A stretch of DNA of 38,589 nucleotides, from NCBI GenBank assembly GCA_040756475.1, contig JBFLZB010000001.1, positions 1 through 38,589 on the forward strand. The letters run 5' to 3'. Origin of the DNA: Thermodesulfobacteriota bacterium. GTDB lineage: Bacteria; Desulfobacterota; Deferrisomatia; Deferrisomatales; JACRMM01. The first letter of the stretch is position 1; the number at the start of each line of letters is the position of its first letter. The translations under genes were made by a program, and so were the position numbers. Positions 29,761-31,933 of the stretch are shown in pieces. The notes beneath the pieces were generated by a model. It saw nothing but the letters and a program-made list of their open reading frames with translations. It was not told the DNA's origin and searched no databases.

Positions 29761-29885
29761 GTAGAGGAGTGGAAACCGTGAACCACGGGCGCGGCGTTGT
29801 GTCTGCGTCGGAAGGTTTGTTACAGTCGTCCCACCGGGGCGGCCGCGAGACGGCCCCTCGAGCGCTTTTCTCTTGGGAGGACCCC

Positions 29886-31286
29886 ATGCCTTGGATCCTT
29901 GCAGCACTCTTGGCGGCGGCCGCGGCCGCTCTCCTGCCCCATGCTGGGTGGGCCGCCTCCCCCGAGGGGGGGCCCGCTGCGGTGCTCGTGTACTCCGCCG
30001 ACGAGCGCGGAGAGATCAGCCCCTGCGGGTGACAGAAGTACCCGCGAGGCGGTCTGGCCAAGCGCGCGACGTATCTGGATGCCGTTCGAGGAGAGGGTTC
30101 CCCCGTCGTCTTCGTCAACGCGGGAAACGCCCTCTTCAAGCGGGAGCACCTCCCCCCCGACCGGGTGCCGGCCGCCCGGGTGACCGCCGACCTGATCCTC
30201 GCCTCCACCGGGAAGATGGGCTGCGCGGCCTTCAACGTGGGGGCCTACGACCTCTCCCTGGGGGTGGACTATCTCCTCGAGCAGCAGTCCCGGCTCCCCT
30301 TCCCGTTTGTCTCGGCGAACCTCGTCGACCCCCACGGCAGGCTTCTCTTTCGTCCCTACGTCCTGGTGCAGGCGGGGGGGATGAAGGTGGGGATCTTCGG
30401 CCTGGTCGACTCCTCCTTGAAGAAGGACAAGATCCCCGCCAGTCACAAGTTCGCGGTCAAGGACCCCCTGGAGACGGCGCGGGCCACGGTGGCCGAACTC
30501 CGGGCGAAGGGTGCCGACCTCATCGTGCTCCTCACCGACATGACCAGCCGCTCCAAGCGGCGCATGGCCATGCTCGAAGACCCGATCCACCTCATCGTCG
30601 GCAGCGACCAGCGAAACCAGATCACCCTGCCCATCACCGTGCAGAGCTCGTTTCTCACCCAGTTGGACCGGGGCGGGAGGTCCGTGGGACGGCTGGAGGT
30701 GTACCGCGGAGGGAGGGAGCCCACGGGGGTCCGGGGTACCGCGGTGGGCGAGTTCCTCTTTCGCCACGGCTTTGTGCAGCTCTTGGTGGAGATGCCGGAC
30801 CACCCGGTGGTGGGCCCCCTGGTGACCCGCACCCTGAAGGAGCTCTCGGTGCTCCAGGAGAGGCAGGCGGCCGAAGCGCCCGTGCCGGAGGACCCCGACT
30901 GCGGCAAGGAGTACGTGGGGATCGCCTCCTGCCGCACCTGCCACCCCGCCCGCTACCGGGCCTGGCTCGATACCCGCCACGCCAAGGCCTACGAGACCCT
31001 CGCCACCCGAAAGCGCCAATTCGACCCCGAGTGCGTCGTGTGTCACGCGGTGGCCTTCGAGTGCGAGGGGGACGTGATCGACTGGAAGGCCCTGGAGGGG
31101 TTCACCAACGTGCAGTGCGAGGCCTGCCACGGCCCCGGCTCCCTGCACGTCCAGTCCGAAGGGGGAGAGAAGCTCCTGGCGGGCCGGGGGCTGCTGGTCT
31201 CCTGTGCCCGGTGCCACACCCCCGAGCGGAGCACCGACCTGGATCTGGAACCCCGGTTCCGGCAGGTGTGCTCCGAGGCGGACTAG
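29886..31286 (+). CDS. Candidate selenoprotein: UshA-like domain plus four-heme cytochrome c554 domain (Sec by UGA at 30030-30032)
   Basis: One TGA interrupts an otherwise continuous frame of 467 codons from the ATG at 29886 (GGGAGGA 5 nt before). Reading it as selenocysteine gives 466 aa: a signal peptide (about 1-24), then SPCG-U49-QKYPRGGLAKRA. In the UshA-like/cytochrome c554 family I recall a PCGC..GGL.RRA motif, so U49 takes the place of the second cysteine. A SECIS-like hairpin follows the TGA. The middle resembles a 5'-nucleotidase/metallophosphoesterase domain whose metal motifs look degraded (NAGN for the GGD motif, NVGAYD for NHEFD). The C-terminus has four CxxCH motifs (CRTCH, CVVCH, CEACH, CARCH). 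It is periplasmic, probably redox-active, of unknown substrate. A nonsense-mutated pseudogene is the alternative. Confidence 0.8.
30043..30066 (+). promoter_or_regulatory. SECIS-like hairpin downstream of the in-frame UGA
   Basis: Stem CGCG (30043-30046) pairs with CGCG (30063-30066) and GGC (30048-30050) with GCC (30057-30059), with A and AAG unpaired between. The apical loop is GGUCUG (30051-30056). Eighteen nucleotides separate UGA from the loop, within the 16-37 nt range of the bacterial SECIS model. The GGUCU loop is like that of E. coli fdhF, where the spacing is 17 nt. A competing stem (GCGGGT 30025-30030 with ACCCGC 30040-30045) also exists. Confidence 0.7.
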
Positions 31287-31438: not shown

Positions 31439-31933
31439 ATGCAGGTGGGCACTCGGGTGCGCTACGCGCTTCGTGCGGTCTTCGACATGGCCTACCACGG
31501 AAACGGGCGGCCGGTGACGGTGGGAGAGATCTCCCGACGGCAGCGGATCAGCGCGCGTTACCTGGAGCAGATTCTCCACAAGCTCACCCGGGCGGGGCTC
31601 GTGGGGAGCAAGCGGGGGCCGCGGGGGGGGTACTTCCTCACCAAGGCTCCCGAGGCATGCAGCGTTCACGACCTCATGCTCGCGACGGAGGGCCCCCTGG
31701 CCCTGGTGCCGTGCCTCGAGTGCGAGGAGAGCCCCGGTGCGGGCAGCCCCGAGCCCGGCTGCCCCTCGGTAGACCGCTGTCCCGCGCGCCTGGTGTGGGC
31801 CGAGGCCGGGCGCCGGATCGGCGAGATCTTCGGCGGGGCGACTATCCAAGACCTGTGCGACCGCGCGGAGCAACGGGGCATTCCCAGGGAGGGCGCCCCG
31901 GAGGGACCGGCTCCGGGGCGCGACCCCGGCTGA
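31439..31933 (+). CDS. Rrf2/IscR-family transcriptional regulator
   Basis: The 164-aa protein has the Rrf2 winged helix at the N-terminus: YALRAVFDMA, SRRQRISARYLEQIL and the KRGPRGGYFL wing. Cysteines C92, C95, C108 and C114 lie in the ligand region. Their number and place fit an Fe-S or redox-sensing type like IscR. The extra spacing between C95 and C108 is longer than in IscR. The start follows GGGGTGGG. It probably senses Fe-S or redox status. It is followed by a G/C-rich hairpin near 32096-32117 and no target gene is certain. Confidence 0.9.
   Translation: MQVGTRVRYALRAVFDMAYHGNGRPVTVGEISRRQRISARYLEQILHKLTRAGLVGSKRGPRGGYFLTKAPEACSVHDLMLATEGPLALVPCLECEESPGAGSPEPGCPSVDRCPARLVWAEAGRRIGEIFGGATIQDLCDRAEQRGIPREGAPEGPAPGRDPG

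Follow-up and report, generated by a model that had tools for sequence, protein, structure and literature searches.

The window analyzed here, a stretch of 38,589 nucleotides from a Thermodesulfobacteriota bacterium of the order Deferrisomatales, holds a reading frame of 467 codons that contains an in-frame TGA. The locus raises the question of whether this codon ends the gene or is read as selenocysteine (Sec), and what kind of protein would result. The original prediction, made from the raw sequence, favored a selenoprotein. It described the frame as open except for one TGA, and exactly one internal stop is present, in the context SPCG-U-QKYPRGGLAKRA. GC3 is 0.81 upstream of the TGA and 0.92 downstream, and by this measure the frame resembles coding sequence both before and after it. 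The signal peptide, the four CXXCH heme motifs and a normal composition past the TGA, all named in that prediction, were likewise found intact. Without recoding, a GTG at 30165 would open the longest standard ORF, and both the export signal and the PCGU motif would be lost. The expectation that annotation would miss the selenoprotein is weakened by the existence of a curated NCBI model. The coordinates of the features are listed in the table.

Table. Features of the selenoprotein locus (positions in the window)
Feature	Position	Strand	Basis
Shine-Dalgarno GGGAGG, about 4-5 nt upstream of the ATG	29876..29881	+	Sequence
UshA-like selenoprotein gene, 466 aa with Sec49 and four c-type heme motifs	29886..31286	+	NF041198, 346.8 bits; Cytochrome_C554 (PF13435), 47.4 bits
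Likely signal peptide MPWILAALLAAAAAALLPHAGWAA, read as Sec-type, first 24 residues	29886..29957	+	Sequence alone
In-frame TGA, Sec49 in PCGU	30030..30032	+	Homologue column comparison
Putative SECIS hairpin, stem and GGUCUG apical loop (30051-30056)	30043..30066	+	Conservation; GGU 18 nt 3' of the UGA
Calcineurin-type phosphoesterase fold (UshA/SoxB), two-metal site degraded	29985..30780	+	Profile and structure comparison
Tetraheme cytochrome c554-type domain (CRTCH, CVVCH, CEACH, CARCH)	30930..31217	+	PF13435 match, CXXCH motifs
16-heme membrane-anchored NapC/NirT (NrfH-like) cytochrome, 743 aa	27360..29591	-	Divergent neighbor, conserved beside the subfamily

Reading of the UGA codon

The homologous sites were read out, and at the exact column between CG and GG[L/V/I/F] 71 carry TGA and 10 carry TGC or TGT; sites were picked by score and the Cys forms on purpose, so that 71 versus 10 is no frequency. 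The motif pattern does not cover seven members, and L070 and L101, although they match it, were left uncounted. The latter reads PCGTC rather than PCGC or PCGU, possibly a shifted-Cys variant. All 31 rows of an alignment have Cys47, and all have Sec or Cys at position 49. The homologues thus include relatives with a second Cys at the UGA column, as the original prediction had expected, beside those with Sec. A strong member occurs in 116 of the 395 genomes of the phylum sample, and members of NCBIfam family NF041198 with one TGA were found in all 12 genomes of the class. A paralogue (C72:12540, L023/L133; ICGUAQNPLGGLAKKA), 32% identical to the present protein, has TGA in the same PCG-U column; no multiheme gene was found beside it within the 10 kb examined. 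Another close homologue (L170) lies on a 3.4 kb contig labelled as a Thermoplasmata archaeon, probably a binning error. A second TGA in the homologue L090 proved to be the normal terminator of that gene.

The genome carries selA (C42, 570 bits), selB (C242, 332 bits), a tRNA-Sec (C151, 70.9 bits) with anticodon TCA according to ARAGORN, and selD (C189, 260 bits), the 3' part of which is cut by the contig end. The check for selA, selB, selC and selD that was proposed with the prediction was therefore favorable for all four. The selD gene is itself a selenoprotein gene, with a TGA in GUGAK (MSEGRPELRLTALSRASGUGAKVG; L010, C189 1-651, reverse strand). The assembly consists of 369 contigs and is 96% complete with 4% contamination. 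In the class, all 12 genomes combine TGA members with a tRNA-Sec, and selA was found in 10 of 12, so that contamination of this one assembly is an unlikely source of the machinery.

Decoding of the UGA at 30030-30032 as selenocysteine is virtually beyond doubt, and the Sec/Cys column, the sel genes and the conserved loop described below bear out the reading as a selenoprotein. The single in-frame stop and the draft state of the assembly would also agree with a true stop codon in a recent pseudogene or with a sequencing error. This explanation is highly improbable and was rejected, because the paralogue and about 70 homologues, drawn from many families, share this TGA in the same column, while the frame, the heme motifs and the codon composition stay intact past it; decay of the gene had already been judged the less likely case from the raw sequence. 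Recoding as another residue such as Trp, for which nothing speaks except the open frame, is scarcely credible given that Cys stands in for Sec in homologues, the full Sec machinery is present in the genome and the SECIS-like loop is conserved.

The hairpin downstream of the UGA

Bacterial SECIS elements are recognized here by a GGU apical loop about 16-37 nt downstream of the UGA. A hairpin had been predicted to begin 18 nt past the codon; the GGUCUG loop does begin there, within the SECIS range, but the stem already starts about 10 nt past the UGA. Of 71 Sec forms, 69 have GGU or an equivalent codon exactly 18 nt past the UGA. GGT serves as the second Gly codon in 64/71 Sec forms versus 4/10 Cys forms (Fisher p 0.0008), and the codon after GGL ends in C in 69/71 versus 5/10 (Fisher p 0.0002), both values being uncorrected for kinship. 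GGT accounts for 5% of the Gly codons in 12 genes of the window. In those 69 Sec forms the third positions in the loop and stem hardly vary (C in 89% at column 21, U in 92% at column 24 and C in 100% at column 30), compared to 35-70% at the other third codon positions of the same stretch. Stem pairing reaches 71% of cells versus 24-52% in slid registers and exceeds all 1000 column shuffles; like the other conservation statistics of this region, these values include sequence kinship and the protein constraint on GGL. The fold energy of the single sequence is -11.4 kcal/mol (z = +0.55 versus shuffles) and reveals no extra stability; the stem of the present copy contains one G.A and one A.A mismatch. 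Rfam returned two sub-threshold chance matches in the SECIS region and nothing else. The predicted hairpin is established by conservation and not by thermodynamics alone: about 70 homologues share both the column of the TGA and the spacing of the GGU. In the loop region, conservation goes further than the encoded protein would demand. In two Sec homologues (L109 and L110) the equivalent of the GGU codon lies 24 nt past the UGA and GGG replaces GGU, so that the hairpin seems shifted.

Family membership and fold

The Sec-read protein scores above the curated cut-off (275 bits) of NCBIfam NF041198 (UshA_like_PCGU, "UshA-like (seleno)protein"). The match spans profile positions 16-265 and 349-515, corresponding to an UshA-like domain followed by a c554-type tetraheme tail, and the PCG[U/C] motif of the family is present with TGA at the fourth position, where members have Sec or Cys. 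The present protein differs from the model in belonging to a PRGGLAKRA subfamily, in being shorter between the domains (466 aa versus 519 model positions) and in the pairing of its gene with a 16-heme cytochrome gene. The 2008 Global Ocean Sampling study counted "COG0737, UshA-like", with the motif CxU, as a selenoprotein (PMC2398784), the UshA-like family also appears among the selenoproteins in a 2022 review (PMC9312934), and NF041198 is tabulated as a selenoprotein family in a 2026 review (PMC13188914). The selenoprotein family is therefore already known and catalogued, and the present gene is a new member rather than a new family. The selenocysteine call made from raw sequence is thereby confirmed, and the gene is placed in a family whose function no paper was found to describe in a limited search of the open literature. 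NF049981 (UshA-like (seleno)protein family 2) is likewise an UshA-like selenocysteine family, but its motif in the published table is CxxU (PMC13188914), unlike the PCGU found here, and it gives a weak local match to the present protein (33.6 bits versus a cut-off of 140). The heme domain resembles cytochrome c554 in its four CXXCH hemes, and the c554 structure 1bvb was found by profile; here, however, it forms the C-terminal domain of a selenoprotein.

In the AlphaFold2 model, built from 31 sequences, most of residues 31-330 reach a pLDDT of about 90 or above, and confidence in the heme domain is low. In Foldseek the model groups with 5'-nucleotidases and SoxB (best match 2z1a, E 4.4e-21). 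The fold and sequence profile are thus those of the 5'-nucleotidase UshA and the thiosulfohydrolase SoxB, but the present protein is without their two-metal ligands and has gained Sec and the heme domain. Profile alignment to 2z1a together with column counts gave the replacements NDxH to ADxR, GD to GN, GNHE to GAYD, SHLG to TDMT and GGHSH to GSDQR. None of these two-metal hydrolase motifs is complete; D39 is kept, and R41, N81, A120 and Y121 stand in replaced positions. The metal motifs are degraded, as had been noted from the raw sequence, and the same applies to most family members. Directly downstream of the first metal motif lies the PCGU loop. An alternative is that the selenoprotein retains a working phosphoesterase or thiosulfohydrolase domain, in which Sec would serve as a metal ligand or regulator. 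The clear UshA/SoxB fold is in line with such an enzyme, as is the retention of the Asp of NDxH in 23 of 31 sequences and of Asp122 in all of them. It is nevertheless improbable, since in most family members other residues stand in place of the NDxH His, the GD Asp, the Asn-His pair of GNHE and the later His residues.

Neighboring genes and proposed role

The subfamily of the present protein is defined by the motif PCGUxKxPRGGLAKRA and 45-50% identity. For the contig scan for relatives the subfamily alignment worked as the query; the single protein found none and the full alignment was too diverse. A gene for a 16-heme NapC/NirT/NrfH-like cytochrome adjoins the subfamily member in 16 of 17 genomes, compared to 1 of 12 other UshA-like Sec loci (2 of 12 when one 17-heme ORF is counted). 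It is divergent in the nine genomes that belong to the order of the window and lies downstream in the rest; between the window and genome G001, of another family, the cytochrome is 60% identical. No description of this conserved partner turned up in a limited search of the open literature. On the other side, 7 of the 17 subfamily genomes have a gene for a protein that combines 9 hemes with a cytochrome b561-like part. A CbcL-like identity was considered for this protein, but no NCBIfam model confirmed it; its gene is absent from the 16 kb of the window examined.

The preferred reading is an exported Sec/tetraheme protein whose Cys-Gly-Sec site acts in redox chemistry with its own hemes and the 16-heme cytochrome; a probability of about 0.85 is given to it, a figure weighted to the Sec decoding. 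SelB and tRNA-Sec would decode the UGA at 30030-30032 with the aid of the downstream hairpin, and Sec insertion would complete a PCGU motif located in a loop of the UshA-like fold, which has lost its own metal site. In the exported protein, with the UshA-like domain fused to the tetraheme c554-like domain, Cys-Gly-Sec may form an active site in the periplasm, of redox (or soft-metal/chalcogen-binding) type, and trade electrons with the four hemes. These in turn may exchange electrons with the probably quinol-linked 16-heme NapC/NirT-type cytochrome encoded next door, a route suggested by the gene neighborhood. The most likely role is that of a periplasmic Sec/tetraheme redox protein served by the 16-heme cytochrome, with the electron-transfer role taken by itself standing at even odds. 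In this respect, the 16-heme pairing hints that the heme-bearing branch of UshA-like selenoproteins serves respiratory electron transfer and not phosphoester hydrolysis. Tentatively, and with the odds somewhat against it, evolution may have replaced the hydrolase site by a Cys-Gly-Sec redox site that is connected to four hemes and fed from the quinone pool via the 16-heme NapC/NirT-type cytochrome; this would constitute an undescribed selenium-dependent periplasmic reductase system of the Deferrisomatales and related lineages of the phylum.

A narrower form of the same explanation is doubtful: in it, a sulfur, selenium or metal species would be bound or reduced at Cys-Gly-Sec as part of sulfur respiration, and the hemes would donate the electrons. 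SoxB is among the related families, and in genome G001 the cluster adjoins DsrJ/O/P-like genes (L138 9510-12256) for a triheme cytochrome, an Fe-S protein and an NrfD-type protein, the last scoring above the DsrP cut-off. However, Dsr-type neighborhoods were seen in a single genus (G001 and G002), and no sulfur gene was recognized beside the selenoprotein gene in the window. Sulfur compounds as the substrate are accordingly a guess from the SoxB kinship and the one Dsr-type neighborhood. Directly downstream of the selenoprotein gene (31439-31933, forward strand) lies a regulator of the Rrf2 family (IscR/CymR-like), which might control it.
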